Source: Terebella lapidaria (taxonomy: Eukaryota; Annelida; Polychaeta; Terebellida; Terebellidae). From it: DNA of 64,000 nucleotides. Below, piece after piece: positions 10,468 to 64,000 of the stretch (within the stretch, counting starts at the first letter, position 1; each line of letters begins with the position of its first letter). Under the pieces are notes generated by a model, which was not told the origin of the DNA, searched no databases, and saw only the letters and a list, made by a program, of their open reading frames with translations. The DNA is taken from contig OX424560.1 in the NCBI GenBank assembly GCA_949152475.1, positions 42,920,719-42,984,718 on the forward strand, in the 5' to 3' direction. The position numbers were made by a program, and so were the translations under genes.

Positions 10468-10499
10468 ATTCCGGCAAGTGTGTGGCCTATGGCCTCTCG
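10468..10499 (+). mobile_element. Orphan HINE-like 3' terminus
   Basis: ATTCCGGCAAGT is followed by the hairpin stem GGCC-TAT-GGCC and the end TCTCG, then a T. The sequence to its left is not part of this family, so this is the left border of the nested region. Its own 5' tip has been lost or lies outside the window. Confidence 0.7.
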
Positions 10500-11775
10500 T
10501 GTGTTTGTTTGTCTGTTCGCACTCTAGCGTCCACAGTTCTTGATTGAAACCTTTCAAAATTCGTGTGCACAATCTGTAGGACACTGGGCAGAAAACGTCC
10601 TATTTTGGTGTGTCTAGGTCAAAAGTCAAGGTCAAGGTCACGCAAAATGTCGAAAACATGTAAGTGCCCATAACTCCGGTTCTAATCATCATAGAGACTT
10701 CAGGTTAAGTGCATATTGTAGATATACTCGAGTTCTATCTTTTGTGAACTTGACCTTGACATTTGACCTTGACCTTGAGAAGTTCGCCTGAGGTCGAATA
10801 TTTGACCTTGGAGGTCACCACCTCCGATTTTCGATCTGATGCTTGGAAACGATGTGGGACCGGTCCCTCATGCTCAATGTCAATTTTTAGCCCGATCGGC
10901 CAATTCGTTATGACGTAATTGACGTTTCTATGGCAACGAAATCGGTCCCATTATAAGCAAAATTGCATGTTTCAAGCTGTCCATGCTGATAAAAGCGTCA
11001 ATAATGTGCGTAAAAATCCAAAATTACACCTGTTCGTAGCCAAGGATAAGTTCTTTTGTTCCACGAAGTTTCAAGGTCAAAGGTCGAAAGTCAAGGTCAA
11101 TATTGACCCGCAAGTGAAAACCATGTAGGTCACTATATCTCAGGAAGTAAGCAAGATAGAGACACGAAAGTAAATCCACAGTATTGCACTCACTTAGCCT
11201 AACAACTTTTGTATTTACACCTAAGGCATATGACCGATAGCCTTTGCAAGCGCCTGAGCTCGAAGTTGACCTCGAAAATGACCTTGAGCTTGACCTTTTG
11301 CAGAAATATCGAGTAGTAGCTCGTTTGAAATGTCTTCAAGAGTACTTTCCAAATCTGTTGTCATTTTCGGAATCGGATGTCAATTGACGTCACAATGACG
11401 TCAGTCGTGATTTCAGACTGACATTTAGGCCTTTTGAGTGTCAGATGTGCAAAGTTATAACATTTACTGCAGATCTAACAGATGCGAACGATGTGGAATT
11501 TTTCTATGATGGTCTCTATAAATTTTTAGCTCAATCGATATATCCGTTTCGACGTAATTGACGTTTTTGTGACAACAAATCAGTGAAATTTCAAAGGAAA
11601 CTCATTATTTGAAGATCTTATGATCTTGTCCGGTTATGATATAACTCATATAAACACGATTTTATCATGCATAGTCAAAAACTCAATTCACAGTAAGTTT
11701 GCAGTATAGAATTGACAACAAATGACGTCATAATTACGTAATCTTTCCGGCAAGTGTGTGGCCTATGGCCTCTCG
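10500..11775 (+). mobile_element. HINE-like element, body A, without its own 5' tip
   Basis: It starts in the (TTTG)n tract, followed by the conserved GTTCGCACTCTAGCGTCCAC. Body A has blocks of AGGTCAAGGTCA at 10617-10640 and of its complement at 10743-10775, and paired TGACGTCA palindromes at 11388-11405. It ends at 11743-11775 with the subterminal copy TTCCGGCAAGT, the GGCC-TAT-GGCC stem and CTCG. The frames inside are translations of the AGGTCA blocks (strings such as GQRSKVKVN), not genes. Confidence 0.8.
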
Positions 11776-11781
11776 TTTGTT

Positions 11782-11939
11782 ACTTGCCGGAATCTAAAGA
11801 TTTCGGCAAGTATGTTGGTTCGTTCGTGGTTTTGTTTGATTGTGTGTTTGTGTGTTTGTGTGTTTGTTACTTGCCGGAATCTAAAGATTTCGGCAAGTAT
11901 GTTGGTTCGTTCGTGGTTTTGTTTGATTGTGTGTTTGTT
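11782..11939 (+). mobile_element. Two stacked HINE-like 5' tips
   Basis: Tips start at 11782 and 11869. Each is ACTTGCCGGAATC, a short loop and GATTTCGGCAAGT, followed by ATGTTGGTTCGTTCGTGG and a (TTTG/TGTG)n tract. Each tip is interrupted inside its tract by the next one, as expected if each later insertion lands in the tract of the earlier element. Confidence 0.8.
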
Positions 11940-13576
11940 ACTTGCCGGAATCTACGATTTCGGCAAGTATATTGGTCTTCTCGTTTGTTTGGATGTTTGG
12001 ATGTTTGTTTGTTCGCCCTCTAGCGTCCACAATTCTTGACTGAATTCTATCAAAAATCGTGTGCGAATTCTCTAGGATACTGGGCAGAAAACGTCCTATT
12101 TTGGCTTGTCTAGGTCAAAGGTCAAGGTCAAGGTCACGCAAAATGTTAAAAACACATAAGTGGCCATAACTCCGGTTCTATTCGTTATAGAGACTTCAAA
12201 CCAAGTTCATATTGTAGATAAACTCCAGTTCTATCTTCTGTGACCTTGACCTTGACATTTGACCTTGGCCTTGAGAAGTTCGCCATGAGGTGAATGTCAA
12301 GGTCAAGTACAAAGGTCAGCGGATCATATCGAGTAGTATATCGTTGGAAAGGTCTTGACCCCCTGATTGCAGTGATACCTTACTTTTGGCGCTGCGACGT
12401 ACACTGACGTCACAATGACGTCATAAACGTCAAATTTCCGAAATTTCAAAAGGCCATAACATCGTCAATACTGTATGGAATCTCTTGAAACTTGATATGC
12501 ATATTGACAGCAATAACCTCTACGAATTTAAGTGCAAAGGTCAAAGGTCAAGGTCAAGGTCATCAAAATCCCAGAAAAACACGTTTCCTATAATAACATC
12601 CGTTTGAATTGTCGTAGGTTCATGAAATTTGAACCATATCATTCAGAAGAGGTATAGCAATCGGACGTATATGTCAATTTCATGATTGACCTTGATTTTG
12701 GTGAGGAAAAAAGGTCATATTAGGGAAACTTCAAGGTCAAATTTTAAAACTAACTGAAACCTATCAAGTAGTATATCAAATGAAAGGTCTTGACTCCCTG
12801 GTACATACTTTCTCATCAGTTTTGAGATGTGACGTTTATTGACGTCACAGTGACGTCATAAACGTTAATTTTTTGAAATTTCAAATGGTCATAGTGTCTA
12901 CAAATCTTGTTAGATTCTGATGAAACTATACAGGTAAAATATATGTCTTCACGTACAGGCAATGCACAATTTTCGTGACTTAAGGTCGAAGGTCGAGGTC
13001 AAGGGAAAGGTCAAAAGCACATAAATGGCTATAACTTCAAAACTAATCATCGCAGAGAGTTCAAACTAAGACCATATTGTGGCATATCAAAAGGCCTTTC
13101 ATGAGTGACCTCAAATGTGACCTTTGACCTTGACCTTGAGAAGTTCGCCACAAGTCAATATCAAGGTCAAGTACAAAGTTCAGTGCACCATATTGAATAG
13201 GATACAGTTGGAAAGGTCTCGGTCTCCTGAGTATAGTGATGTCTTAATTTTGGTGCTATGATGTTCAGTGACGTCACAATGACGACATAAATGTCAAATA
13301 TCTGAAATTTCAAATGGTCATAACAACATCAATACTGGAGGGAGGTCAAGGTCATCAAAATCCCAGAAAAAAACATTACTGGTAATAACTTCTTCTCGAA
13401 TTGTCGTAAGTTCATGAAATTTGAATCATATTCAGAATATGGAAAGGCATGCAAACTTATATGTTAAATCCATGAAATCACATGAGTAAATTTTCAAGGT
13501 CAAGTTTTCAAACTCATTGAAACCTGTCAAGTATCATGAGTATGCGTTCCGGCAAGTGGGTGCCCTAGGGGCTCTT
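11940..13576 (+). mobile_element. Complete HINE-like element, body B (class alpha)
   Basis: The 5' tip ACTTGCCGGAATC at 11940 is matched by TTCCGGCAAGT at 13547-13558, followed by the palindromic stem GCCC-TAG-GGGC. Body B contains the DR1-type string AGGTCAAAGGTCA at 12112-12124, several AGGTCAAGGTCA runs, and TGACGTCA near 12410 and 12840. The body resumes as body A immediately after its end, so the whole element is an insertion in an A-type element. Confidence 0.75.
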
Positions 13577-14853
13577 GTGTGTTTGTTTGTCTGTTCGCAC
13601 TCTAGCGTCCACAGTTCTTGATTGAAACCTTTCAAAATTCGTGTGCACAATCTGTAGGATACTGGGCAGAAAACGTCCTATTTTGGTGTGTCTAGGTCGA
13701 AGGTCAAGCTCAAGGTCACGCAAAATGTCGAAAACACGTAAGTGCCCATAACTCCGGTTCTAATCATCATAGAGACTTCAGGTTAAGTGCATATTGTAGA
13801 TATACTCGAGTTCTATCTTTTGTGACCTTGACCTTGACCTTTGACCTTGACCTTGAGAAGTTCGCCTGAGGTCGAATATTTGACCTTGGAGGTCACCTCC
13901 TCCGATTTTCGATCTGTTGCTTGGAAACGATGTGGGACCGGTCCCTTATGGTCAATATCAATTTTTAGCGCGATCGGTCACTTCGTTATGACGTAATTGA
14001 CGTTTCTATGGCAACGAAATCGGTCCCATTATAAGCAAAATTGCAGGTTTCAAGTTGTCCATACTGATAAAAGCGTCAATAATGTGCGTAAAATTCCAAA
14101 ATTACACCGGTTCGTAGCCAAGGATAAGTTCTTTTATTCCACGAAATTTCAAGGTCAAAGGCCGAACGTCAAGGTCAATATTGACCCGCAAGTGAAAACC
14201 ATGTAGGTCACTATATCTCAGGAAGTAAGCAAGATAGAGACACGAAAGTAAATCCACAGTATTGCACTCACTTAGCCTAACAACTTTTGTATTTACACCT
14301 AAGGCGTATGACCGATAGCCTTTGCAAGCGCCTGAGGTCGAAGTTGACCTCGAAAATGACCTTGACCTTGACTTTTTGCAAAAATATCGAGTAGTAGCTC
14401 GTTTGAAAGGTCTTCAAAAGTACTTTCCAAATCTGTTGTCATTTTCGGAATCGGACGTCAATTGACGTCACAATGACGTCAGTCGTGATTTCAGACTGAC
14501 ATTTCGGCCTTTTGAGTGTCAGATGTGCAAAGTTATAACATTTACTGCAGATCTAACAGATGCAAACGATGTGGAATTTTTCTATGATGGTCTCTATCAA
14601 TTTTTAGCTCAATTCATATATCCGTTTTGACGTAATTGACGTTTTTGTGACAACAAATCAGTGAAATTTCGAAGGAAACTCATTATTTGAAGATCTTATG
14701 ATCTTGTCCGGTTATGATATAACTCATATAAACACGATTTTATCATGCATAGTCAAAAACTCAATTCACAGTAAGTTTGCAGTATAGAATTGACAACAAA
14801 TGACGTCATAATTACGTAATCTTTCCGGCAAGTGTGTGGCCTATGGCCTCTCG
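13577..14853 (+). mobile_element. HINE-like body A, array unit 1
   Basis: This is the first of four nearly identical body A units. It has no tip of its own directly upstream; by bracket order its tip is the one at 11869. It ends at 14822-14853 with TTCCGGCAAGT, the GGCC-TAT-GGCC stem and CTCG. Confidence 0.8.
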
Positions 14854-14859
14854 TTTGTT

Positions 14860-16295
14860 ACTTGCCGGAATCTAAAGATTTCGGCAAGTATGTTGGTTCG
14901 TTCGTGGTTTTGTTTGATTGTGTGTTTGTGTGTTTGTGTGTTTGTTACTTGCCGGAATCTAAAGATTTCGGCAAGTATGTTGGTTCGTTCGTGGTTTTGT
15001 TTGTGTGTTTGTGTGTTTGTGTGTTTGTTTGTCTGTTCGCACTCTAGCGTCCACAGTTCTTGATTGAAACCTTTCAAAATTCGTGTGCACAATCTGTAGG
15101 ATACTGGGCAGAAAACGTCCTATTTTGGTGTGTCTAGGTCGAAGGTCAAGCTCAAGGTCACGCAAAATGTCGAAAACACGTAAGTGCCCATAACTCCGGT
15201 TCTAATCATCATAGAGACTTCAGGTTAAGTGCATATTGTAGATATACTCGAGTTCTATCTTTTGTGACCTTGACCTTGACCTTTGACCTTGACCTTGAGA
15301 AGTTCGCCTGAGGTCGAATATTTGACCTTGGAGGTCACCTCCTCCGATTTTCGATCTGTTGCTTGGAAACGATGTGGGACCGGTCCCTTATGGTCAATAT
15401 CAATTTTTAGCGCGATCGGTCACTTCGTTATGACGTAATTGACGTTTCTATGGCAACGAAATCGGTCCCATTATAAGCAAAATTGCAGGTTTCAAGTTGT
15501 CCATACTGATAAAAGCGTCAATAATGTGCGTAAAATTCCAAAATTACACCGGTTCGTAGCCAAGGATAAGTTCTTTTGTTCCACGAAATTTCAAGGTCAA
15601 AGGCCGAACGTCAAGGTCAATATTGACCCGCAAGTGAAAACCATGTAGGTCACTATATCTCAGGAAGTAAGCAAGATAGAGACACGAAAGTAAATCCACA
15701 GTATTGCACTCACTTAGCCTAACAACTTTTGTATTTACACCTAAGGCGTATGACCGATAGCCTTTGCAAGCGCCTGAGGTCGAAGTTGACCTCGAAAATG
15801 ACCTTGACCTTGACTTTTTGCAAAAATATCGAGTAGTAGCTCGTTTGAAAGGTCTTCAAAAGTACTTTCCAAATCTGTTGTCATTTTCGGAATCGGACGT
15901 CAATTGACGTCACAATGACGTCAGTCGTGATTTCAGACTGACATTTCGGCCTTTTGAGTGTCAGATGTGCAAAGTTATAACATTTACTGCAGATCTAACA
16001 GATGCAAACGATGTGGAATTTTTCTATGATGGTCTCTATCAATTTTTAGCTCAATTCATATATCCGTTTTGACGTAATTGACGTTTTTGTGACAACAAAT
16101 CAGTGAAATTTCGAAGGAAACTCATTATTTGAAGATCTTATGATCTTGTCCGGTTATGATATAACTCATATAAACACGATTTTATCATGCATAGTCAAAA
16201 ACTCAATTCACAGTAAGTTTGCAGTATAGAATTGACAACAAATGACGTCATAATTACGTAATCTTTCCGGCAAGTGTGTGGCCTATGGCCTCTCG
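14860..16295 (+). mobile_element. HINE-like array unit 2 with two 5' tips
   Basis: Tips at 14860 and 14947, then body A and a 3' terminus at 16264-16295. The unit is offset from unit 1 by 1442 bp. It differs from unit 1 by only a few bases that I can see (for example ttcttttg in place of ttctttta near 15573). Confidence 0.8.
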
Positions 16296-16301
16296 TTTGT
16301 T

Positions 16302-17737
16302 ACTTGCCGGAATCTAAAGATTTCGGCAAGTATGTTGGTTCGTTCGTGGTTTTGTTTGATTGTGTGTTTGTGTGTTTGTGTGTTTGTTACTTGCCGGAAT
16401 CTAAAGATTTCGGCAAGTATGTTGGTTCGTTCGTGGTTTTGTTTGTGTGTTTGTGTGTTTGTGTGTTTGTTTGTCTGTTCGCACTCTAGCGTCCACAGTT
16501 CTTGATTGAAACCTTTCAAAATTCGTGTGCACAATCTGTAGGATACTGGGCAGAAAACGTCCTATTTTGGTGTGTCTAGGTCGAAGGTCAAGCTCAAGGT
16601 CACGCAAAATGTCGAAAACACGTAAGTGCCCATAACTCCGGTTCTAATCATCATAGAGACTTCAGGTTAAGTGCATATTGTAGATATACTCGAGTTCTAT
16701 CTTTTGTGACCTTGACCTTGACCTTTGACCTTGACCTTGAGAAGTTCGCCTGAGGTCGAATATTTGACCTTGGAGGTCACCTCCTCCGATTTTCGATCTG
16801 TTGCTTGGAAACGATGTGGGACCGGTCCCTTATGGTCAATATCAATTTTTAGCGCGATCGGTCACTTCGTTATGACGTAATTGACGTTTCTATGGCAACG
16901 AAATCGGTCCCATTATAAGCAAAATTGCAGGTTTCAAGTTGTCCATACTGATAAAAGCGTCAATAATGTGCGTAAAATTCCAAAATTACACCGGTTCGTA
17001 GCCAAGGATAAGTTCTTTTATTCCACGAAATTTCAAGGTCAAAGGCCGAACGTCAAGGTCAATATTGACCCGCAAGTGAAAACCATGTAGGTCACTATAT
17101 CTCAGGAAGTAAGCAAGATAGAGACACGAAAGTAAATCCACAGTATTGCACTCACTTAGCCTAACAACTTTTGTATTTACACCTAAGGCGTATGACCGAT
17201 AGCCTTTGCAAGCGCCTGAGGTCGAAGTTGACCTCGAAAATGACCTTGACCTTGACTTTTTGCAAAAATATCGAGTAGTAGCTCGTTTGAAAGGTCTTCA
17301 AAAGTACTTTCCAAATCTGTTGTCATTTTCGGAATCGGACGTCAATTGACGTCACAATGACGTCAGTCGTGATTTCAGACTGACATTTCGGCCTTTTGAG
17401 TGTCAGATGTGCAAAGTTATAACATTTACTGCAGATCTAACAGATGCAAACGATGTGGAATTTTTCTATGATGGTCTCTATCAATTTTTAGCTCAATTCA
17501 TATATCCGTTTTGACGTAATTGACGTTTTTGTGACAACAAATCAGTGAAATTTCGAAGGAAACTCATTATTTGAAGATCTTATGATCTTGTCCGGTTATG
17601 ATATAACTCATATAAACACGATTGTATCATGCATAGTCAAAAACTCAATTCACAGTAAGTTTGCAGTATAGAATTGACGACAAATGACGTCATAATTACG
17701 TAATCATTCCGGCAAGTGTGTGGCCTATGGCCTCTCG
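16302..17737 (+). mobile_element. HINE-like array unit 3 with two 5' tips
   Basis: Tips at 16302 and 16389, body A, and a 3' terminus at 17706-17737. The offset from unit 2 is again 1442 bp. In the first half it shares the variant ttctttta with unit 1, but in the last 150 bp it shares variants with unit 4 (acgattgtatc, gaattgacgac, aatcattccgg). It is a mosaic. Confidence 0.8.
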
Positions 17738-21811: not shown

Positions 21812-21813
21812 TT

Positions 21814-23537
21814 AGTTGACGAATTAAAAATTCGTCAACTATGTTGGTCAGTTCCGTTGGTTTGTCTGTCTGTCTGTCTGTTAGCACGATACAGGCCACA
21901 ATTTTCGAGCTAGCATCCCGAAACTTTTTTGATAGATAGGTATCCGCCCTGGGACGGCACCGAACGTTTTTGAAAGAAATTGGTTTGTTGATGACGTCAT
22001 CAAAAATCATTGAAAATCCACCAATGATGAGAGATAGGGATTTTTCGATTTTTCAAAAATTCACACAGCAGTCACATTTGGACCGATATCTCTGAAATTC
22101 AACACACCAATATATAATGGTATTTTCCATCGAACTGCGAAGTTTTACTCGGATTGTTCAAACGTCAATGACGTCACGACGTGAAACGTCATTTTTCGAA
22201 ATCGGGCTATATATCGGAAAGTATTTGTCGTACAGAGAAGCGAATTGCACCATTGGAAAGCTCGTTGAATTCTGGTTTAGAAGGGTACTGTCCGATACTT
22301 TTCCGCCATGATAAATTTTCCGCTATGACGTCATAAACGTAAGGCCTGTCATACCAATTTTTCGACTTTTCAGCAAACTTTCAAACATCTACAATGCACT
22401 CAAATTTGAAGTTATTGAACTGTAATTATCAGAACGTATGTGAAATAATGATATCCAGCCACGTACCAAGTTTCAACACGCTACGTGCAACGTCAATGAC
22501 GTCATGACGTAAAACGTCAATTTTCGAAATGGGGCTATATATCAAAAAGTATTTGTTGTAGAGAGAAGCGGATTGCACCATTGAAAAGGTCGTTGAATTT
22601 TGGTTTAGGAGGGTACTGTCCGATACTTTTCCGCCATGATAGATTTTCCGCTATGACGTCATAAACGTAAGGCCTGTCATACGAATTTTTCGACTTTTCA
22701 GCAAACTTTCAAACATCCAAAGTGCACTCAATTTTGAAGATATTAGGCTGTAATTATCAGAACGTAAGTGGAATAATGATACTCAGCCATACACCAAGTT
22801 TCAACACGCTACGTGCAACGTCAATGACGTCATCACGTAAAACGTCAATTTGCGAAATTGAGCTATATATCAAAAAGTATTCGTCGTACAGAGGAGCGAA
22901 TTGCACCATTGGAAAGCCCGTTGAATTCTGGTTTAGAAGGGTACTGTCCGATACTTTTCCGCCATGATGGATTTTCCGCTATGACGTCATAAACGTATGG
23001 CCTGTCATACCAATTTTTCGACTTTTCAGCAAACTTTCAAACATTTACAGTGCACTCAAATTTGAAGGTATTGAACTGTAATTATCAGAACGTATGTGAA
23101 ATAATAATATCCAGCCACATGCCCAGTTTCAACACGCTACGTGCAACGTCAATGACGTCATGACGTAAAACGTCAATTTTAAAAATGGAGCTACATATCG
23201 AGAGGTATTTGTCGTACAGAAAAGCGGATTGCACCATTAGAAAGCTCGTTGAATTCTGGTTTGGAAGGGTACTATCCGATACTTTTCCGCCATGATAGAT
23301 TTTCCGCTATGACGTCATAAACATATGGCCTGTCATACAAGATTTACGGCTTTTCAGCAAACATTCAAACAGGCACAGTGCACTCAATTTTGAAGGCAAT
23401 AGGCTGTAATTATGAGAACGTATGTGGAGCGTTATTGTTCAGCCACGTAACGAATTTCAACACGCTACATGCAACGTCGATGACGTAATTGACGTTTCTA
23501 TGGCAAATTCGTCAACTGCCGGGCCTATGGCCCCTCG
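21814..23537 (+). mobile_element. Complete HINE-like element, class delta (1724 bp)
   Basis: This is the clearest uninterrupted copy. The 5' tip hairpin is AGTTGACGAATT-AAA-AATTCGTCAACT, followed by a (GTCT)n tract and the conserved GCACGATACAGGCCAC. After a 300-bp leader come about four 328-bp satellite units (22161-23480), then GACGTAATTGACGTTTC. The 3' terminus at 23506-23537 has AATTCGTCAACT, the GGGCC-TAT-GGCCC stem and CTCG. Outer flanks are T on both sides, so removing it restores TTTGATTG. Tip and 3' copy match in all 12 positions. No protein is encoded. Confidence 0.85.
22161..23480 (+). repeat. 328-bp satellite array in the class delta element
   Basis: Four units inside the element at 21814-23537, beginning caaacgtcaatgacgtcacg and ending in aacgtcgatgacgtaattga, where the element's own 3' part takes over. 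Confidence 0.85.
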
Positions 23538-24585
23538 TGATTGTATGTCCATCAGTAAGATGTCTGTTAGCACGATAGCGACCACAATTCTGAAGATATT
23601 TTCACGAAAATTCACACGGTTATTCTTTATGTTAAAGACTAGAAATGGTTCAATTTTCGTGAAAATCGGTTGAGTGAAGACGTCACAAAAATATCTAAAA
23701 AATTCCTCACGCTGCCGCCACAGTAGCCACACCAGTGCCCAGCCATGGGATATACCAGCATTTATTCTGAGCACGGTCTCTCGTACGCTATATACTTCAC
23801 ACGCAGCAACTTCAAGCGACAGATTGGCTCAGTCAGTAAAGGCGTTAGGTGTTGCTGCGCGGGGTCCCGGGTTCGATTCCTATTGTCTTTTTTTTTTTAA
23901 ATTCCGACTAAATGACTTTTTCTGTTTCTGAGTGTTTTTTTTTTGTATTAATTCTGATATGTTTTCCACAGTCACCCTTTTATCTAATTCTATTGTTTCG
24001 CGATATTAAATCAAAATCAAGCCTGAAGCAGAAAACACAAAGAATCCACTACTTGGTGCCTTTATCACTGTTTATGGAATTTGAAAAAATAAAAACGTTT
24101 CATGAATATGCATGAGTGGAATATTTCAGTGTGTCTTCGGATGAATTATTTGATCCAGCTACAATTTTCATTGCAAAATGTTGTATTTTACGTTTGTTTC
24201 TGGCATCATCAAAATCTGATTGCATCCTACACGTAGGCCAACGTTTAATTTCCGAAATTTCAAAAGGCAATAACAGCGTCAATACTGTATGGAGTATCTT
24301 GAAACTTGATATACCCATGCATTGATAGTATTGACCTCTACGAATTGTAGTACAAAGGTCAAAGATCAAGGTCAAAGTCATCGAAATCCCAGAAAAAACA
24401 CCTGTCCAGTAATAACATTTGCTTGAATCGTCGGAGTCTCATCAATTTTGAACCACTTCATTCGGAAGCGGCAAAACAATCAAATGTGTATGTCATTTCC
24501 AGATAATAACAATACTATGACCTTGACCTTTCACATTGAGATGAAAGTTTGCGAATTCGTCAACTGCCGGGCCTATGGCCCCTCG
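23538..24585 (+). mobile_element. HINE-like element remnant carrying a tRNA-like insert
   Basis: The left part (23538-23700) is a body resembling that of class delta (TTAGCACGATAGCGACCAC). A stretch unrelated to the family follows (about 23700-24235), including the tRNA-like unit. From about 24236 body B resumes in mid-sequence (ttccgaaatttcaaaagg, caaaggtcaaagatcaaggt). The 3' terminus at 24554-24585 is class delta. It is therefore a chimera or a heavily rearranged copy. Confidence 0.65.
23816..23898 (+). ncRNA. tRNA-like sequence, probable SINE head or tRNA pseudogene
   Basis: An A-box-like TGGCTCAGTCAGT lies at 23825-23837 and a B-box GGTTCGATTCC at 23870-23880, with spacing normal for a tRNA. 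A run of T at 23888-23898 could end Pol III transcription. Acceptor and T stems pair poorly, so it does not look like a working tRNA. A tRNA-derived SINE head is the best reading; I cannot define a SINE tail. Confidence 0.55.
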
Positions 24586-24587
24586 TT

Positions 24588-24784
24588 ACTTGCCGGAATC
24601 CAAAGATTTCGGCAAGTATGTTGCTCTGTTCGTGGATGTGTTTGTGTGTTTGTTTGTTACTTGCCGGAATCTACGATTTCGGCAAGTATGTTGGTCTGTT
24701 CGTGGTTTTGTTACTTGACGAAATCAAAGATTTTGTCAAGTATGTTGATCGGTTCCGTTTGTTTGTTTTTTGTTTGTTTGTTTG
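24588..24784 (+). mobile_element. Three stacked 5' tips (alpha, alpha, beta)
   Basis: Tips start at 24588 (ACTTGCCGGAATC), 24659 (ACTTGCCGGAATC) and 24713 (ACTTGACGAAATC with partner GATTTTGTCAAGT). The last one runs through an undisturbed TTTG tract straight into its body, which makes it the empty-site reference for the copy at 26082. Confidence 0.8.
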
Positions 24785-26081: not shown

Positions 26082-26139
26082 ACTTGACGAAATCAAAGAT
26101 TTTGTCAAGTATGTTGATCGGTTCCGTTTGTTTGTTTTT
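26082..26139 (+). mobile_element. HINE-like 5' tip, class beta, interrupted
   Basis: ACTTGACGAAATC, loop and GATTTTGTCAAGT, then ATGTTGATCGGTTCCG and a TTTG tract that stops where the class gamma element begins. Its tract and body F continue at 30491 on the other side of that element. Confidence 0.8.
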
Positions 26140-26502
26140 ACTTGGCGAAATCTTCGATTTTCGCCAAGTATGTTGGTCACTCGCGGATGTTTGTCTGTTT
26201 GTTTGTATGTTTGTATGTCTGTGTGCGCTCTAGCGGCCACAGTTTTAACGCTAACTTCTCGAAACTTTTTCTATGGAAAGATATTCGCCCAAGGACGGAA
26301 CCGCACGTTTTTGAAAAAAATCGGTCCATTGATGACGTCACCAAAAATCATTGAAAAATCGAAAAATCCCTATCTCTCATCATTGGCGAATTTTAAAAAA
26401 TTCGCACAGCAGTCAAATTTGAACCGATTGTTCTGAAATTTGGTACACTGATATAAGTTCATATTATACATCAAACAACAAAGTTATACGTAGATCGGTT
26501 GA

Positions 26503-30043: not shown

Positions 30044-30490
30044 TATTTGTCGTACAGAAAAGCGGATTGCACCATTGGAAAGCTCGTTGAATTCTGGTTT
30101 AGGAGGGTACTGTCCAATACTTTTCCGCCATGATAGACTTTCCGCAAAGACGTAATAAACGTAATGCCTGCCATACCAATTTTTCGACTTTTCAGCAAAC
30201 ATTGAAACATCCACAGTGCACTCAAATTTGAAGTTATTAGACTGTAATTATGGGAACCTATATCGAATATTAATACCAAGCCATGTACAGAGTTTAAACA
30301 CGTTACATTCAACAACAATGACGTCATGATGTCAAACGTCCATTTTCGAAATAGGATTGTATCTGGCTAAGTATTAATTCTTAATGAAATGGATTACACC
30401 CTCGGAAACCTCATTCAATTATAGTTAAAGTAGGCCACGCATGTAGAAAAAGATTTCGACAAGTTTGGCCTTTAGGCCAATGGTATCTCG

Positions 30491-31417: not shown

Positions 31418-31785
31418 TTTTTACTTGGCGAAATCTTCGATTTTCGCCAAGTATGTTGGTCACTCGCGGATGTTTGTCTGTTTGTTTGTATGTTTGTATG
31501 TCTGTGTGCGCTCTAGCGGCCACAGTTTTAACGCTAACTTCTCGAAACTTTTTCTATGGAAAGATATTCGCCCAAGGACGGAACCGCACGTTTTTGAAAA
31601 AAATCGGTCCATTGATGACGTCACCAAAAATCATTGAAAAATCGAAAAATCCCTATCTCTCATCATTGGCGAATTTTAAAAAATTCGCACAGCAGTCAAA
31701 TTTGAACCGATTGTTCTGAAATTTGGTACACTGATATAAGTTCATATTATACATCAAACAACAAAGTTATACGTAGATCGGTTGA

Positions 31786-43749: not shown

Positions 43750-43755
43750 TTTGTT

Positions 43756-47448: not shown

Positions 47449-47511
47449 ACTTGACGAAATCAAAGATTTTGTCAAGTATGTTGATCGGTTCCGTTTGTTT
47501 GTATGTTTGTT
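47449..47511 (+). mobile_element. HINE-like 5' tip, class beta, interrupted
   Basis: ACTTGACGAAATC and partner GATTTTGTCAAGT, then a short TTTG tract, interrupted by the next tip at 47512. The join gatattatt/ACTTGACG on its left is the same as at 26082, 59713 and 63572. Confidence 0.8.
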
Positions 47512-52548: not shown

Positions 52549-52601
52549 AGTTGACGAATTGAAAATTCGACAACTATGTTGGTCAGTTCCGTTTGTTTGT
52601 T

Positions 52602-55600
52602 ACTTGCCAGAATCTTCGATTTTGGCAAGTATGTTGGTTCGTTCGTGGATGTGTTTGTTTGTTTGTCTGTTTACAAAACAACGTCCACATTTCTTACCTG
52701 ATTTCTTCCAAATTTAGTGCACATATTCTCTAGAATACCGCGCAGAAAACGTCCTATTTTGGTGTATCTAGGTCAAAGGTCAAGGTCAAGGTCATGCAAA
52801 ACGTCGAAAACACATAAGTGGCCATAACTTCGGTTCTAATGGTCCTAGAGACTTCAAATCAAGTTCATATTGTAGATAAAATCGAGTTCTATCTTTCGTG
52901 ACCTTGACCTTGACATTTGATCTTGACCTTGAGAAGTTCGCCTGAGGTCGAATATTTGACCTTGGAGGTCACCTCATCCGATTTTCGATCTGATGCTTGG
53001 AAACGATGTGGGACCGGTCCCTTATGCTCGATGTCAATTTTTAGCCCAATCGGCCAATTCGTTATGACGTAATTGACGTTTCTATGGCAACGAAATCGGT
53101 CCCATTATAAGCCAAATTGCATTTTTCAAGCTGTCCATGCTGATAAAAGCGTCAATAATGTGCGTAAAAATCCAATGATAAACCTGTAAATAAGTAAGGA
53201 TGACTTCTTTTGATCCACGAAATTTCAAGGTCGTAGGTTGAAAGTCAAGGTCAATATTGACCCGCAAGTGAAAACCATGTAGGTCACTATATCTCAGGAA
53301 CTAAGCAAGATAGAGACACGAAAGTAAATTCACAGTATTGCACTCACTTAGCTCAACAACTTTTGCATTTACACCTAAGGCGTATAACCAATAGCCTTTA
53401 CAAGCGCCTGAGGTCGAAGTTGACCTCAAAAATGACCTTGACCTTGACCTTTTGCAAAAATATCGAGTAGTAGCTCGTTTGAAAGGTCTTCGAGAGTACT
53501 TTCAAAATATGTTGTCATTTTTGGAATCGGACGTCAGTTGACGTCATAATGACGTCAAATGTGATTTCAGACCAACATTTAGGCCTTTTGAGTGTCAGAT
53601 GTTCAAAGTTATACCATTTACTGCAGATCTAACAGATGCAAACGATGTGGAGTCGTCCTGTGATGGTTTCTACCAATTTTCAGCTCAATCGATATATCCG
53701 TTTCGACGTAATTGACGTTTTTGTGCCAACAAATTGGTAAAATTTCAAAGGAAACTCATCATTTGTAGATATTATGATCTTGTCCGGTTATAATATAACA
53801 TATATACACGATTTAATCATGCATATTTAAAAAAATTATTGACAGCAAGTTTGAACTATAGAATTGACAAAACTTAATCAGAATCCTATGAAAATTATTC
53901 ATTTAACATATACTTTTTATGTTTTCATGGTTCCGATTTTCACAAATTTACTGAACATTAAATTCTAAAGCATTTCATGCAGTCAGTTGCAGTGTTACTT
54001 CTAGTTTATGGTCCACTTTTCATATTTGGAATAAATTGAAAACTCGCCGAGATATCAAAGTAGAAAGAGCAGTGGGGTGAATCTGATTCTCAATCCATTC
54101 ACACAACAATAAGCTGCAGAAACGATTACCCCCTGTGGACATGTCCCCTTCTAAATATACACACTCGGTCGCGTATTAGTACAGTATATCATATATATAT
54201 ATATCCGAATGCAGATCAAACAATATTTCTTTTGTTTTCCGACTCAGAGGTGTCAAACTGGTATAATAACGTCTAAAACTCATGTCTAAATACAGTCTGG
54301 GTCAAGCGACAGGCCACTTTATATCAGAACTTTTGGGGGTGACGGACCGGCGGAGGGATCAGCTCAATTCCCGGTTTTTGGTGGTAATTTGTCTCATGAC
54401 CAAAGGTCCTGTACATGCACCAGACATCTCTCATTTTTTTCGAATTTTCAGAAATTCACACAGCAGTCACATTTGAACCGATACCTCTGAAATTCAACAC
54501 ACGGATATATAATGGTATCCTCCATCGAACTGCGAAGTTTTACGCGGATTGTTCGAACGTCAATGACGTCACGACGTGAAACGTCATTTTTCGAAATGGG
54601 GCTATATATCGGAAAGTATTTGTCGTACAGAGAAGCGGATTGCACTGTTGGAAAGCTCGTTGAATTCTGGTTTAGGAGGGTACTATCCTATACTTTTCCG
54701 CCATGATAGATTTTCCGCTATGACGTCATAAACGTATGACCTGTCATACCAATTTTTCGACTTTTCAGCAAACTTTCAAACATCCACAGTGCACTCAAAA
54801 TGGAAGCTATCGGATTGTAATCGTTAGGACGTATGTGGAATATTAATACCCAGCCATTCACTGAGTTTCAAGATGTTACGTCCAACGACAATGACGTCAT
54901 GACGTCAAACGTCAACTTTCGAAATAAGGTAGTATCTCGGTAAGTATTCATCCTAGAGTTGAACGAATTACACCTTCGGAAAGCTCGTTCAATTCTGCTT
55001 AAAGTGGGCCACGTGTGGTTCTTTGCTGTCATGATAAATTTCTCGATATGACGTCATAAACGTAAGGCCAGTCATACTTTTTAGCAACATTTCAAGCATC
55101 CACATTGCATTCTAATTTGAAGCTATTCGACTGTAATTCTGACAACATATGTGGAATAATAATACTCAGTAATTTTCATCGTAGAGACTTCAAACCAAGT
55201 GCAATTGAGGTACAAAGGTCGAAGGTCAAGTTCAAGGTCATCAAAATCCCAGAAAACACCTTTTTGGTAATAACATCTGCCTGAATCATCGTAGGCTCAT
55301 GGAATTTACATCATACCATTCAGAAGGGATATGGCGTTCATACGAATATGTCATTGGTATGAATGACCTTGAACTTGGTCGGAAAATTGAGGTCACATGA
55401 GCAAAATCTCAAGGTCAAATTTTCAAACTAACTGAAATCTATCAAGTAGTATATCAAATGGAAGGTCATGATCGCTTGATACATACTATTCCATTAGTTT
55501 TAATATGTGACGTTTATTGACGTCACAGTGACGTTATAAACGTCAATTTTTCGAAGATTCTAAAGGCCATAGTGTCCACAATTGTTATTCGACTCTGATG

Positions 55601-56363
55601 AAATTGTTCAAGTATATTCCGCATCTCCATGCACAGGCAATGCACAATTTTCGTGACCCAAGGTCAAAGGTCAAGGTCAAGGAAAAGGTCAAAATTACAT
55701 AAATGCCCATAACTTTGGTAAAAATCGTCATAGAGAGTTCAAACTAGGCACATATTATAGCATATCAAAAGGCCTTCCTTAAATCAGTTTGAATGTCACT
55801 TTTGACCTTGATGCCTGAGGTCAAAGTTGATCACAAAAATGACCTTGACCTTGACCTTTTGCGAATATATCGAGCAGTACCTTTTTTGAAAGGTCTTTGG
55901 AAGTACTTTCCAAATATGTTTTTATTTTCAAAATCTGATGTCATACAACGTCATAATGACGTGTTTTAATGAACAAATTTGGTGAAATTTCAAAGAAACT
56001 CATTTGTTTTTTCGCCCTCTAGCATCCACAATTCTCGCTGGATTTCTTTCAATGTTAGTGTGCATATCCTGTAGTCTCATTTCTCGCGACTGCACACTTT
56101 TGGTGATTCTAGGTCAAAGGCCAAGGTCATGGAAAAGGTCAAAATCACATAAACGGCTATAACTTAAAAACTAATCATTGAAAACAGTTTGATCTCGAAA
56201 AGATTGTAGCATATTAAAAGCCCTCCCTTGAGGGACCTTGGTCGTGTCATTTGACCTTGACATTACAGATCAAGGTAGAAGTTCTCTTTTTTCCATTCTG
56301 GCAAGTACTCGCTGTACCAGCGAAGGCTTTCAGCCGTCAAGTCAGCGGCAGCGAGCGATTTCA
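52602..56363 (+). mobile_element. Class epsilon HINE-like element, composite (about 3760 bp)
   Basis: The tip ACTTGCCAGAATC (52602, partner GATTTTGGCAAGT) differs from class alpha by an A. The 3' copy at 56295-56306 is ATTCTGGCAAGT, the exact inverse including that difference. Its hairpin is TCGCTG-TAC-CAGCGA, unlike any other. Between them are body A (to 53870), module G (53870-54424), two satellite units (54557-55160), body B and a small second body start at 56005. The end at 56363 is set by the TTTG tract; there is no CTCG. Confidence 0.65.
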
Positions 56364-58257: not shown

Positions 58258-58419
58258 CTTGACAAAATTAAGATTTCGACTTCCGGAGATGTATTTATCT
58301 CGGATCATTTATCCACGACATGTACAATGTCTAAAGGGTGGCCCCATTACTATAACCTTGACCTTTACATTAAAACGAAAGTTTGCGAATTCGTCAACTG
58401 CCGGGCCTATGGCCCCTCG

Positions 58420-59712
58420 TTTGTATGTTTGTTTGTTTGTGTGCGCTCTACAGGCCACAGTTCTCATTGGAAATTCATGGAATTTGATAGAAAGGTTTTA
58501 GGCTGAAACAGGAAGGTCCCAGACTCTTTGTTAAGCTCAAGGTCAAATAACAAGGTCAAGGTCATGAAAACACGTAAGTGGCCACAACTCTTGTTCTAAT
58601 CGTCGTAGAGACTTCAAATCAAGTGCATATTGTAGATATACTCGAGTTCTATCTTCCGTGACCTTGACCTTGAACTTTGACCTTGACCTTGAGAAGTTCG
58701 CCTGAGGTCGAAGTCAAGGTCAAGTACGAAGGTCAGCGCAGCATATCGAGTAGTATATCGTTGGAAAGGTCTTAAGCCCCTGATTCCAGTGATATCTCAT
58801 TTTTGGCGCTGCGACGTAAACTGACGTCACAATGACGTATTAAACGTCAATAATCCGAAATTTCAAAATGTCATAACATCGTCAATAGTGTATGGAATCC
58901 CTTGAAACTTATTATGCATTTTGACAGCATTGACCTCTACGAACTGAAGTACAAAGGTCAAAGGTCAAGGTCAAGGTCATCGAAATCCCAGAAAAACACG
59001 TTTTCTGTAATAGCATCCGTTTGAATCATCGTGGGCTCATGAAATGTGAACCATGTCATTTAGAAGGGGTATGGCAATCAGATAAATATGTCAATTCCAT
59101 GATTGACCTCGGACTTTGTCTATAATCTGACAAAACTTAATCAGAATCCTATGAGTTTTTTGGATTTTACAGATATTTTTTATGTTTTCATGGCTCCAAT
59201 TTTCACACATTTACTGAACATTAATTTTAAAGAATTTCCTTACAGTCAGTTGCAGTGTTATTTCTAGTTTATGGTCCACTTTTCACATTTGGAATAACTT
59301 GAAAACTCGCCGAGATATCAAAGTAGAAAGAGCAGTGGGGTGAATTTGATTCTCAATCCGTTCAGATGCTAATAAGCTGTAGAAACGATTACCCCCTGTG
59401 GACATGTCCCCTTCTAAATATACACACTCGGTTGCGAAGTAGTACAGTATATCATATATGTATCCAAGTGCACATCTCAAACAACATTTCTTTTGTTTTT
59501 TGACTCAGAGGTGTCCAACTGGTATGATAAAGTCTAAAACTCATGTCTAAATACAGTCTGGGTCAAGCAACAGGCCACTTTATATCAGAAATTTTGGGCA
59601 TGACGAACCGGGGTTTGTGAGCACCGGGTTTGTGAGCACTGTTACAGGTTCATAGTACATGTAGTGCATTGCCTAAGGCCCAATAGCTTGTATATATGCA
59701 CCGGATATTATT
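58420..59712 (+). mobile_element. HINE-like body F plus module G
   Basis: The TTTG tract, GCGCTCTACAGGCCACAG, AGGTCA blocks (DR1 string near 58954), then module G from about 59115 to 59712, ending tgcaccggatattatt. The same layout, moderately diverged, is found at 24785-26081 and 62269-63571. Confidence 0.75.
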
Positions 59713-59814
59713 ACTTGACGAAATCAAAGATTTTGTCAAGTATGTTGATCGGTTCCGTTTGTTACTTGACGAAATCAAAGATTTTGTCAAGTATGTTGAT
59801 CGGTTCCGTTTGTT
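59713..59814 (+). mobile_element. Two stacked class beta 5' tips
   Basis: ACTTGACGAAATC tips at 59713 and 59764, both with partner GATTTTGTCAAGT and TTGATCGGTTCCGTTTG. The two are identical over 51 bp, so the second may be a tandem slip and not a separate insertion. Confidence 0.75.
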
Positions 59815-62268
59815 ACTTGCCGGAATCTTCGATTTCGGCAAGTATGTTGGTCAGTTCGTTTGTTTGTGTGTCCTGTTGTTTGTTTGTTTGGTTGTGCGCC
59901 CTCTAGCGTCCACAGTTTTTGAGCTAGCATCATGAATTTTTTTTTATAGATAGGTATTCGCCCAAGGACGAGACCGCACGTTTTTGGAAAAAATCGGTCC
60001 ATTGATGACGTCACCAAAATTTTTTAAAAACTCGAAAAATCCCTATCTCTCATCATTAGCGAATTTTTAAAAATTCACACAGGAGTCATATTTAGTCCGA
60101 TACCTCTGAAATGTAACACATCGATATATGATGATATCGTCCATCAAACTGCGAAGCTTTGTTTGGATCCAACGAACGTCAATGACGTCACGACGTAAAA
60201 CGTCAATTTTTGAAATGGGACTATATCTCAGAAAATATTCGTCGTACAGAGAAGCGGATTGCACCACTGGAAAGCTCGTTGAATTCTGGTTTAGGAGGAT
60301 GCTGTCCGATACTTTTCCGCCATGATAAATTTTCCGCTATGACGTCATAAACGTAAGGCCTGTCATACCAATTTTTCGACTTTTCAGCAAACTTTCAAAC
60401 ATCCACAGTGCACTCAAATTTGAAGATATTGGACTGTAATTATCAGAACATGTGTGAAATAATATTACCCAGCCACGTAAAAAGTTTCAATACGCTACGT
60501 GCAACATTGATGACGTCATGACGTAAAACGTCAATTTTAAAAATGGGGCTATATATCAAAATGTATTCGTCGTACAGAGAAGCGGATTGCACCACTGGAA
60601 AGCTCGTTGAATTCTGGTTTAGGAGGGTGCTGTCCGATACCTTTCCGCCATGATAGATTTTCCGCTATGACGTCATAAACGTAAGGCCTGTCATAACAAT
60701 TTTTCGACTTTTCAGCAAACATCCAAACATCCACAGTGCACTCAAATTTGAAGATATTAGACTGTAATTATCAGAACATGTGTGAAATAATATTACCCAG
60801 CCACCTAAAAAGTTTCAACACGCTAGGTCCAACGTTGATGACGTCATGACGTAAAACGTCAATTTTTAAAATGGGGCTATATATCAAAAAGTATTCGTCG
60901 TACAGAGAAGCGGATTGCACCACAGGGAAGCTCGTTGAATTCTGGTTTAGAAGGGTGCTGTCCGATACTTTTCCGCCATGATAGATTTTCCGCTATGACG
61001 TCATAAACGTAAGGCCTGTCATACCAATTTTTCGACTTTTCAGCAAACATCCAAACATCCACAGTGCACTCAAATTTGAAGATATTGAACTGTAATTATC
61101 AGAAAGTATGTGAAATGATAATACCCCGTCACATACCAAGTTTCAACACGCTACGTGCAACGTCAATGACGTCATGACGTAAAACGTCACTTTTGAAAAT
61201 GGGGCTATATATCAAAAAGTATTTGTCGTACAGAGAAGCGAATTGCACCATTGCAAAGCTCTTTGAATTCTGGTTTAGAAGGGTGCTGTCCGATACTTTT
61301 CCGCCATGATAGATTTTCCGCTATGACGTCATAAACGTAAGGCCTGTCATAACAATTTTTCGACTTTTCAGCAAACATCCAAACATCCACAGTGCACTCA
61401 AATTTGAAGATATTGAACTGTAATTATCAGAAAGTATGTGAAATAATAATACCCCGTCACATATTAAGTTTCAACACGCTACGTGCAACGTCAATGACGT
61501 CATGACGTAAAACGTCACTTTTGAAAATGGGGCTATATATCAAAAAGTATTTGTCGTACAGAGAAGCGAATTGCACCATTGGAAAGCTCGTTGAATTCTG
61601 GTTTAGGAGAGTACTGTCCGATACTTTTCCGCCATGATAGATTTTCCGCTATGACGTCATAAACGTAAAGCCTGTCATACCAAATTTTCGACTTTTCAGG
61701 AAACTTTCAAACATCCACAGTGTTCTCAAATTTGAAGTAATTTGACCGTAATCATGAGGACATACGTGGAATATTATTACCCAGCAATATATTGAGTTTC
61801 AAGACGTTACGCACAACGACAATGACGTCATAACGTCAAACGTCAATTTCGCAAATGGGGCTATATATCGTAAAGTATTTGTCGTTAAGAAAAGCGGATT
61901 GTACCATTGGAAAGCTCGTTGAATTCTGGTTTAGGAGAGTACTGTCCGATACTTTTCCGCCATGATAGATTTTCCGCTATGACGTCATAAACGTAACGCC
62001 TGTTATACCAAATTTTCGACTTTTCAGCAAACTTTCAAACAGCTACAGTGCACTCAAATTTGAAGATATTGGACTGTATTTGTGAACAGGTATGCGGAAT
62101 ATTAATACCCAGCCATATACCGAGTTTCGACACGCTACATGCAACATAAATGACGTCATGACGTAAAACGTCAATTTTCAAAATGGGGCTATATATATCG
62201 GAAAGTATTAGTCGTACAGAAGTATCATGAGTATGCATTCCGGCAAGTGGGTGCCCTAGGGGCTCTCG
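59815..62268 (+). mobile_element. Complete HINE-like element with six satellite units (class alpha, 2454 bp)
   Basis: Tip ACTTGCCGGAATC (59815), partner GATTTCGGCAAGT, TTTG tract, leader with TCTAGCGTCCACAG, satellite array 60177-62220, and a 3' terminus at 62237-62268: ATTCCGGCAAGT, stem GCCC-TAG-GGGC, CTCG. Just before the terminus it shares gtatcatgagtatgc with the end of 11940-13576, which has the same stem. No protein is encoded. Confidence 0.8.
60177..62220 (+). repeat. 328-bp satellite array
   Basis: Six full units; the landmark gtcgtacagagaagcg recurs at about 60241, 60568, 60897, 61226 and 61553, then in mutated form at 61882, a spacing of 327-330 bp. Each unit has two TGACGTCA sites. 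Adjacent units 2-4 are the most alike, as in arrays that grow by unequal exchange. Confidence 0.9.
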
Positions 62269-63571
62269 TTTGTATGTTTGTTTGTTTGTTTGTTTGTGTG
62301 CCCTCTACAGGCCACAATTCTCATTGGAAATTCATGAAATTTGGTAGAAATTTTCTAGGCTGAAACAGGAAGGTCCCAGACTCTTTGTTAAGCTCAAGGT
62401 CAAATAACAAGGTCAAGGTCACGCAAAACGTTGAAAACACATAAGTGCTCATAACTCCAGTTCTAATCGTCGTAGAGACTTCAAATCAAGTGCATATTGT
62501 AGATATACTCGAGTTCTATCTTCCGTGTCCTTGATCTTGACCTTTGACCTTGACCTTGAGAAGTTCGCCTGAGGTCGAAGTCAAGGTCAAGTACAAAGGT
62601 CGGCGCAGCATATCGAGTAGTATATCGTTGGAAAGGTCTTGGGCCCCTGATTCCAGTGATATCTTATTTTTGGCGCTGCGACGTAAACTGACGTCACAAT
62701 GACGTCATAAACGTCAAAAATCCGAAATTTCAAAGGGTCATAACATCTTCAATAGTGTATGGAATCCCTTGAAATTTGATATGCATTTTGACAGCATTGA
62801 CCTCTACGAACTCAAGTACAAAGGTCAAAGGTCAAGGTCAAGGTCATCGAAATCCCAGAAAAACATGTGTTATGTAATAAAATCCATTTGAATCATCGTG
62901 GGCTCATGAAATTTGAACCATATCATCCAGAAGAGGTATATCAATCAGATAAATATGTCAATTCCATGATTGACCTCGAACTTTGTCTATAATCTGACAA
63001 AACTTAATCAGAATCCTGAGGATTTTGGATTTTACAGATATTTTTTATGTTTTCATGGCTCCAATTTTCACTAATTTACTGAACATTAATTTTAAAGCAT
63101 TTCCTTGCAGTCAGTTGCAGTGTTATTTCTAGTTTATGGTCCACTTTTCACATTTGGAATAAATTGAAAACTCGCCGAGATATCAAAGTAGAAAGAGCAG
63201 TGGGGTGAATTTGATTCTCAATCCGTTCAGATGCTAATAAGCTGTAGAAACGATTACCCCCTGTGGACATGTCCCCTTCTAAATATACACACTCGGTTGC
63301 GAAGTAGTACAGTATATCATATATGTATCCAAGTGCACATCTCAAACAACATTTCTTTTGTTTTTTGACTCAGAGGTGTCCAACTGGTATGATAAAGTCT
63401 AAAACTCATGTCTAAATACAGTCTGGGTCAAGCAACAGGCCACTTTATATCAGAACTATTGGGGATGACGAACCGGGGTTTGTGAGCATTGTGAGCACTG
63501 TTACAGGTTTATAGTACATGTAGTGCATTGCCTAAGGCCCAATAGCTTGTTTATATGCACCGGATATTATT
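62269..63571 (+). mobile_element. HINE-like body F plus module G
   Basis: Long TTTG tract, GTGCCCTCTACAGGCCAC, AGGTCA blocks, TGACGTCA near 62690, the DR1 string near 62821, then module G (about 62990-63571) ending tgcaccggatattatt. Close to 58420-59712 along its length. Confidence 0.75.
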
Positions 63572-63830
63572 ACTTGACGAAATCAAAGATTTTGTCAAGT
63601 ATGTTGATCGGTTCCGTTTGTTACTTGACGAAATCAAAGATTTTGTCAAGTATGTTGATCGGTTCCGTTTGTTTGTTACTTGCCGGAATCTACGATTTCG
63701 GCAAGTATGTTGGTCTGTTCGTGGTTTTGTTTGTGTGTTTGTTACTTGCCGGAATCTACGATTTCGGCAAGTATGTTGGTCAGTTCGTTTGTATATGTGT
63801 TTGTCTGTTTGTCTGTTTGTCTGTTTGTCT
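63572..63830 (+). mobile_element. Four stacked 5' tips (beta, beta, alpha, alpha)
   Basis: Tips at 63572 and 63623 (ACTTGACGAAATC), 63678 and 63744 (ACTTGCCGGAATC). This is the deepest tip stack in the window. A (GTCTGTTT)n tract follows. The closing 3' ends must lie beyond the right edge. Confidence 0.8.
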
Positions 63831-64000
63831 GTTCGCCCTCTAGCGTCCACAATTCTACATGAATTACTTTCAAAATTATTGTGCACATTCTCTAGGATAA
63901 TGGCCCAAAAACGTCCTATTTTGGTGTGTCTAGGTCAAAGGTCAAGGTCAAGGTCACACAAAATGTTCAAAACACATCAGTGGCCATAACTCCGATTCTA
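63831..64000 (+). mobile_element. HINE-like body B, start (cut by window edge)
   Basis: CGCCCTCTAGCGTCCAC, then the DR1 string AGGTCAAAGGTCA and AGGTCAAGGTCA near 63930, continuing off the edge. Confidence 0.75.

Follow-up and report, generated by a model that had tools for sequence, protein, structure and literature searches.

Stacked tips of HINE elements in the polychaete Terebella lapidaria as probable nested insertions into (GTTT)n tracts

The stretch considered here, a window of 64,000 nucleotides from the annelid Terebella lapidaria (GenBank assembly GCA_949152475.1, contig OX424560.1, positions 42,920,719 to 42,984,718 of the forward strand), carries Helentrons and their non-autonomous relatives, the HINEs, of several related families. 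The 5' termini of these elements, called tips in the following, stand in stacks, which for the most part represent nested insertions into the (GTTT)n tract 3' of an earlier tip, a point that a preceding interpretation of the letters alone (the sequence-only reading) had missed. We regard as the best explanation, with a probability of roughly 0.83, that HINE and Helentron families nest in (GTTT)n tracts, and that the two ends of a copy agree through the family's own Rep protein together with shared descent. Read from 5' to 3', a HINE begins with a 13-nucleotide 5' subterminal inverted repeat (subTIR) and its hairpin partner; a (GTTT)n tract and a body follow, and a 3' subTIR with its palindrome completes the element. 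In the sampled loci a copy starts behind TT with the self-folding subTIR, continues into (GTTT)n, and closes with a 3' subTIR and palindrome that usually fit the class of the tip. Five terminal classes had been proposed, and all ten motifs quoted for them occur in the window; a sixth class within it and the variants 1b, 2b, and 2c outside it, which are perfect or nearly perfect palindromes, have to be added.

Tips were scored as a 13-mer followed by one to four bases, the partner arm, and then ATGTTG or ATATTG, and ends as the 3' copy followed by a palindrome, mostly with a CTCGT-like tail. By these rules the window holds 26 tips (11782 to 63744), all on the plus strand, the identical scan of the minus strand giving none, and 24 3' ends (10467 to 62236), of which 22 were recognised by palindrome and CTCGT-like tail and two (56294, 58220) by the palindrome. 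Read as tokens along the window, stacks of tips are followed by repeats of body and end, an order that suggests brackets. For two stacks outside the window the expected order of the ends was written down before their DNA was retrieved. At C1:8.62 Mb the tips 1b, 3, 1, 1b are followed by the ends 1b, 1, 3, 1b; the first of these ends was known beforehand, and the other three came as predicted. At C2:49.38 Mb the tips 2b, 4, 1b, 1b, 1, 1, 2c are followed by the ends 2c, 1, 1, 1b, 1b, 4, all in the predicted places. Five of these were found by the automatic scan and the sixth, 2c, by a directed look; it has no CTCGT-like tail, and its 13 bases equal the 2c tip in full. The seventh end lies beyond the retrieved DNA, in which the last body has begun.

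The stacks and arrays could also have arisen by tandem duplication of a single element, through slippage or unequal crossing-over, with the matching ends being mere duplicates. If the tips had been duplicated, each stack should have a single end. The two nests show otherwise: both are of mixed class and have an end, in reverse order, for each tip within reach. They reject noise or pure slippage as the sole cause of the stacks. Duplication has clearly left its traces, in identical 87-bp tip pairs together with the 1,442-bp units at 14821-17704, in a 5,283-bp unit present at 26140 and 31423, in long head-to-tail arrays of near-constant spacing (a class 4 variant at C3:24.93-24.98 Mb, about 908 bp; class 2 at C1:38.54-38.64 Mb, about 1.36-1.4 kb), and in two loci with tips and no end (L066, L071). 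As a general account of the stacks we consider it improbable. A pair of sites, one filled and one empty, also speaks against it. The (GTTT)n tract of a Helentron copy on C130 is interrupted by a class 3 HINE, whereas that of the copy on C14 is continuous, and over the 1 kb behind this site the two are 99.8% identical.

The arrangement is not peculiar to these loci. A second tip in the same orientation, 10-40 bases behind TATGTTG, occurs at 1,402 places in the genome (control: 2), and a stricter pattern with the full second hairpin at 913 (control: 0). Tips facing each other, the only opposed arrangement sought, were found at four places against three in the control, which is the control level. 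Stacks reach about eight tips.

In the sampled loci, then, new copies enter the (GTTT)n tract immediately behind the tip of another element and in its orientation, which is probably set by the T-rich strand of the tract. Successive landings stack the tips, with the 3' ends following in reverse order, like brackets. The Rep/helicase/endonuclease of the same family would nick at the tip, and one strand would be peeled off until a halt at the 3' subTIR and palindrome. Tip, partner, and 3' copy would agree because the family's own Rep must read both ends and because the family shares descent, with compensatory changes passing through a G.T wobble of the hairpin. Alongside nesting, tandem duplication and composite elements are also at work.

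The window itself can be read in this way. Its features are listed below; pairings are those given by order.

1..1929, minus strand: N-terminal part (DUF6570, OTU) of the Rep/helicase/endonuclease open reading frame (ORF) of an autonomous Helentron, continuing left to C6:42915961 (L039:3243).
6383..8382 (left boundary approximate), minus strand: sixth-class HINE with tip AGGTTACCGGACC, GTCC-type microsatellite, 3' subTIR TTTCCGGTAACCT, and palindrome GGCC-CTT-GGCC.
10467..10500, plus strand: class 1 3' end, with which the autonomous Helentron of the Rep ORF beginning at 1929 (minus strand) probably terminates.
11782..11811, plus strand: class 1 tip hairpin ACTTGCCGGAATC-TAAA-GATTTCGGCAAGT, outermost of the three-tip stack 11782, 11869, 11940.
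11940..11968, plus strand: class 1 tip, innermost of this first stack, pairing with the end at 13545.
13545..13590, plus strand: class 1 3' subTIR CGTTCCGGCAAGT with palindrome GCCC-TAG-GGGC, which elsewhere goes with 1b tips; closes 11940.
14821..14860, plus strand: class 1 3' end with palindrome GGCC-TAT-GGCC and CTCGT; closes 11869, the next tip following directly at 14860.
14821..17704, plus strand: two tandem 1,442-bp units (14821, 16263), each combining a pair of class 1 tips with a single body and a single end; a composite or duplicated element.
21814..21840, plus strand: class 4 tip AGTTGACGAATTA-A-AAATTCGTCAACT, closed by the class 4 end at 23505.
23505..23540, plus strand: class 4 3' end AAATTCGTCAACT with GGGCC-TAT-GGCCC.
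24588..24741, plus strand: tip stack of class 1 (24588), class 1 (24659), and class 2 (24713).
26082..26169, plus strand: class 2 tip (26082), then class 3 tip (26140).
26140..30490, plus strand: class 3 HINE with tip at 26140, 328-bp repeats at 26502-28852, and end GATTTCGACAAGT at 30452; tandem copy at 31423-35773.
38365..38398, plus strand: class 2 3' end CATTTCGTCAAGC with CGACC-TAT-GGTCG, closing the class 2 tip at 26082.
41173..41207, plus strand: class 1 3' end, which order alone pairs with the class 2 tip at 24713 (mismatched).
42445..43756, plus strand: two class 1 3' ends (42445, 43717), closing 24659 and 24588; next tip at 43756.
52549..52630, plus strand: class 4 tip (52549), then class 5 tip ACTTGCCAGAATC (52602).
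56294..56325, plus strand: class 5 3' end CATTCTGGCAAGT with TCGCTG-TAC-CAGCGA, closing the tip at 52602.
58387..58422, plus strand: class 4 3' end, which would close 52549 provided that 56642 (a false end) and the end at 58220 are disregarded.
59713..59843, plus strand: tip stack of class 2, class 2, and class 1, the innermost closed at 62236.
63572..63772, plus strand: tip stack of class 2, class 2, class 1, and class 1, with no end before the window stops.

The sixth-class element, running from 8382 to about 6400, has the partner GGTCCGATAACCT and adds GGCCCTTGGCC to its end. A copy at 57226 (ACTTGGCGAAATC) was rejected as a tip, being without a hairpin partner. At 51974 and 56642, copies of AGACATTGCAAGT are followed by a long palindrome ATCCGGAT-CGG-ATCCGGAT and were not counted as HINE ends. 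The class 2 tips at 26082, 47449, 59713, and 63572 have near-identical upstream sequence (AATAGCTTGT...GCACC-GATATT type), as expected of tandem 3'-truncated class 2 units.

The two-tip, one-end units at 14821-17704 fit a third account, in which several 5' tips and one 3' end transpose together once self-insertion has occurred, a proposal made for Fusarium Helitrons (PMC5148889). Such composite elements are doubtful as the general explanation, given that the two tested nests have an end for each tip within reach, and they can coexist with nesting. Duplication and composite formation both occur beside nesting and may account for the unmatched tips.

How far do the matching ends support nesting by family? 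For a pairing blind to class labels, each end was joined to the last open tip, and the two were compared over 11 bases. The sample comprised the window, the two nests, and 26 loci (167,104 bases), with L067, L004, L068, and L069 entering only inside the nests; from the loci L068-L074, only L068 and L069 were taken in. It yielded 63 tips and 50 ends, giving 41 pairs, 22 open tips, and nine unmatched ends, against no tips and nine ends in the reversed-sequence control. Exact matches make up 25 of the 41 pairs (14.7 after shuffling), nine more differ at one base, and seven at two or more. The mean distance between tip and end is 0.88 compared with 1.77 for shuffled pairs (p = 5e-5). Several window copies are tandem duplicates and hence not independent; with one pair kept per type of tip and end (22 pairs) the means are 1.45 and 2.34 (p = 8e-4). 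The exact count includes wrong partners, because the missed 2c end causes a shift and because classes 1 and 1b are identical over 11 bases.

A test on a single base gave the same direction. Among ends on contigs C1-C4 that share the palindrome TCGCTG-TAC-CAGCGA and differ at one base of the 3' copy (CTGG or CCGG), 8 of 12 CTGG ends have a class 5 tip in the 6 kb upstream, compared with 2 of 12 CCGG ends (p = 0.018). For a limit of 4 kb the figures are 6 of 12 and 1 of 12 (p = 0.034), and for 15 kb 10 of 12 and 4 of 12 (p = 0.018). The input was, among the matches listed, 100 of the 312 class 5 tips and 100 of the 128 rows of another match list; some class 5 tips on the minus strand of C4 (28.092-28.111 Mb) were omitted, which leaves the nearest distances unaffected.

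The sequence-only reading had claimed that tip, partner, and 3' copy change together in each class. By the numbers of exact pairs and the shuffled control this largely holds and is partly confirmed. It fails in class 3, at the last base of class 2, whose end terminates in GC and not GT, and in the fixed G.T mismatches of the partner (one such wobble each between partner and tip in classes 1, 2, and 5). The 3' copy quoted for classes 1 and 5 equals the tip arm over 12 bases, and that of class 2 likewise except for the last base; some class 1 ends (20245, 42445, 43717: TAGTCCGG) are off by one base. Much of the matching can also follow from one lineage per class, so that descent from a single ancestral copy, which had been named as a ground for refutation, applies in part.

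A further suggestion was that the 3' copy is templated by the tip hairpin, which would rewrite the three copies jointly. The exact agreement of 3' copy and tip arm in classes 1 and 5 is what such templating would give. Among class 1 loci, L055 and L058 have an altered end with tip and partner intact, and L002 and L005 an altered partner with the tip intact, their ends lying beyond the reached DNA; the class 1 3' copy agrees with the tip arm and not with the partner. These changes in single copies, together with the tip/end difference of class 3 that persists in the window and the C1 nest, argue against copying from segment to segment and for shared descent with selection on both ends, and templating is in our judgement hardly tenable. 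The partner GATTTTGG is present in 100 of 100 class 5 tips among the matches listed (of 312), and nine class 1 tips, five of them within one array, also carry it; these resemble intermediates between class 1 and class 5.

The hairpins differ in strand. Classes 1, 2, and 5 and a class 3 variant, whose one mismatch is G.T on the tip strand, fold there by 1.2-2.3 kcal/mol more stably than on the opposite strand. The window form of class 3 folds 0.3 worse on the tip strand, and classes 4, 1b, and 2b are equal on both; the class 4 variant hairpin has an A.A mismatch. The polarity of the G.T pair was dropped as a sign of strand choice, the classes being too few and related.

Several observations weigh against nesting by families with matched ends. 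The ends of classes 1 and 1b are separated by the palindrome only, and in the window order assigns class 1 tips to two ends that carry the 1b palindrome (13545, 62236). The order found in the C1 nest is one of 12 possible orders, reduced to one of four if 1 and 1b are pooled (one of three for the three new ends); that of the C2 nest is one of 180, pooled one of 30 (one of five for the five blind ends). Since pooling weakens the test of order, confidence in our explanation was lowered from about 0.86 to the value given above. Not every tip has an end: none was found for the four tips of L066 or the two tips of L071, and in the genome 312 class 5 tips compare with 42 exact class 5 ends. The class 3 end of the window differs from its tip at position 6, and the mismatch recurs in the C1 nest, L060 being an exact match. 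Among the seven poor pairs, two involve false ends (56642, and 2848 in L050) and two result from the missed 2c end, and for three in the window (11782, 24713, 47449) duplication or 3' truncation is the only explanation at hand. The missed 2c end also shifts all five C2 pairs by one, and some "exact" pairs are thus not true partners. Finally, the autonomous elements are incomplete in places: a hairpin search over the 10 kb to the left of the window gave no class tip for its Helentron, and the 7 kb upstream of each of the clade B copies described next yielded no 3' end.

The sequence-only reading had proposed that the classes may be served by different Rep proteins. The genome contains 234 candidates for the Rep N-domain; 150 matches were scored, and about 130 (counted by hand) lie in open frames of at least 1,000 amino acids. 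The ORF leading leftward from window position 1929 on the minus strand encodes DUF6570, OTU, Helitron_like_N, PIF1, and Exo_endo_phos, the last three left of the window. It belongs to clade A and has a class 1 body on its left and the class 1 end at 10467 on its right; by this end only, it probably goes with class 1. In the region left of the window the body is oriented opposite to the Rep ORF. At C1:41.18 Mb, covered except for 41183310-41188499 and 41191500-41193499, a clade A Rep, sharing 78.5% identity with the ORF next to the window, lies between a class 1 tip and a class 1 end that follows 21.3 kb on. A clade C Rep at C1:47.13 Mb stands between a tip and an end of class 4 separated by 22 kb; the retrieved DNA (all but about 0.6 kb inside) shows no further tip or end. 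The two clade B copies, one at C14:4.39 Mb and the other on C130, show 99.6-99.8% identity in the main blocks compared, and represent separate insertions or a segmental duplication. In HINE orientation both have a body of 328-bp repeats and an antisense Rep ORF; the C14 copy has a class 3 tip, and the tip of the C130 copy lies beyond the reached DNA. The C130 copy also contains a Helentron-like insertion (L041:511-3967; tip AGGGCATTTC, end with GAAATGCCC and palindrome) that the C14 copy does not have.

Local BLASTP puts the identity between clades A, B, and C at about 50-57%. The shorter Reps of L015 and L023, to which no class is assigned, are 60-62% identical to the Rep of L072, and a fourth clade (L009-L011, L013) is so far without a class. 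Judged from sequence, three Rep clades thus appear to go with three terminal classes (A with 1, B with 3, C with 4) at four distinct loci, one of them assigned by inference, and at all four the Rep ORF is antisense. This is an association, in keeping with the proposal that different Reps read the classes and providing Rep-bearing loci for classes 1, 3, and 4; that family-specific Reps read their own termini is plausible.

The assignment to Helentrons and HINEs, already guessed in the sequence-only reading, is borne out by the layout, the 3' palindromes, and the Rep-helicase-endonuclease ORF. All 26 window tips have a partner arm, corresponding to a palindromic 5' subTIR or a nearby complementary inverted repeat, and the 24 ends have the 3' subTIR and then a palindrome near the 3' end. 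The microsatellite expected 3' of the 5' module is (GTTT)n behind the tips and of GTCC type in class 6. Helitron_like_N, PIF1, and Exo_endo_phos stand in one ORF by Pfam, as in a Rep/helicase fused to an endonuclease. TT precedes 61 of 63 sampled tips, and insertion at TT without target duplication agrees with the single filled/empty pair, on its 3' side only and with the exact number of T blurred by the repeat. The class 3 HINE of the window is 88.5-89.0% identical to the autonomous copies over 1.2 kb in a single comparison, against a benchmark of more than 95%. A canonical Helitron (Helitron1; 5'-TC, 3'-CTRR, insertion between A and T) does not fit the starts in T-ACTTG/AGTTG and the CTCGT-like ends. 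The abundance of the motifs is not due to chance, because ACTTGCCGGAATC occurs 1,591 times in the 761.6 Mb genome and its reversed control once. The hairpin patterns of ACTTG type (class positions free) and AGTTG type have 2,821 and 1,271 genome matches, respectively, with none for either reversed control. The 13-mer alone does not make a tip, as three of eight sampled 13-mer loci (L003, L007, L008) have no hairpin under the tip rule.

Much of this has been described in kind. The anatomy and element-specific changes of the ends are published for Drosophila, a mite, and an oyster, and stacked 5' termini for Fusarium, as far as the accessible parts of these papers show. PMC4067079 reports palindromic subTIRs of 12-15 bp and, in DINE-1, an inverted repeat near the 5' subTIR; PMC7492417 reports 5' subTIR, complementary inverted repeat, microsatellite, 3' subTIR, and palindrome, and notes changes diagnostic of particular elements, among them changes in subTIR, inverted repeat, and stem-loops. 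Published descriptions therefore exist where the sequence-only reading knew of none. The Cg_HINE elements of Crassostrea gigas (PMC7492417) share all these parts as well as central tandem repeats and element-specific changes of subTIR, inverted repeat, and stem-loop. Several of the oyster elements have tracts of GTC type, whereas GTTT is found here in the five classes first proposed, and the accessible description contains no deep class-ordered nests like those found here. HINE-Mo, DINE-1, and Helentrons (PMC4067079, accessible part) have in common with the present elements the palindromic subTIR or inverted repeat, the 3' palindrome, the TT or T-rich target, and Rep/helicase/endonuclease. One Drosophila Helentron there also has its Rep in minus orientation, comparable to the four antisense loci above; nesting of HINEs in each other's microsatellite distinguishes the present case. 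FoHeli of Fusarium oxysporum (PMC5148889, accessible part) shares hairpin termini, asymmetric inverted repeats, self-insertion, and multiple 5' termini with one 3' terminus. That source states that an endonuclease domain was found in none of the putative fungal Helitrons, unlike the Rep found here, and describes one non-autonomous element nested in an autonomous one, compared with stacks of about eight tips here. A literature search found no deep class-ordered HINE nest, subscription papers being outside its reach, which does not imply absence from print; searching with the letters of the terminal motifs gave only unrelated papers. Added here are the bracket-ordered nesting with a prediction that held, the filled/empty pair, the constant orientation of neighbouring tips, and the assignment of one Rep clade to each of three classes. 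Matching ends are to be expected of such elements; what strikes the eye is how deep and how well ordered the nests are.

Two further features belong to the element bodies. Identical ORFs of 306 amino acids (29097-30017 and 34380-35300, minus strand) lie inside the duplicated class 3 elements; the first matches RVT_1 with 23.9 bits, below the cut-off of 29.6, and is perhaps a captured fragment. Dense TGACCT/AAGGTC repeats, which presumably resemble nuclear-receptor half-sites, occur at 6492-7600 and in element bodies, as well as in a 134-bp tandem array inside the class 6 HINE.

A wider interpretation, which we put forward tentatively and at rather less than even odds, is that at least three terminal codes exist, each read only by its own Rep clade, with one common landing pad, the (GTTT)n tract inside the tip. 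The nests would then be ordered records of transposition and the tract an evolved safe target: a copy landing there would harm neither the host element nor a gene, and would be oriented by the tract. To our knowledge, recognition of both ends by a Helentron Rep has been inferred rather than shown. The coexistence of several families in one genome, each having its own tip, partner, 3' copy, palindrome, and Rep clade, provides a natural swap set for testing it. Bracket nests also reveal, without evidence beyond the sequence, which insertions are older and which younger, and they suggest how head-to-tail arrays of HINEs, often termed satellites, can begin.

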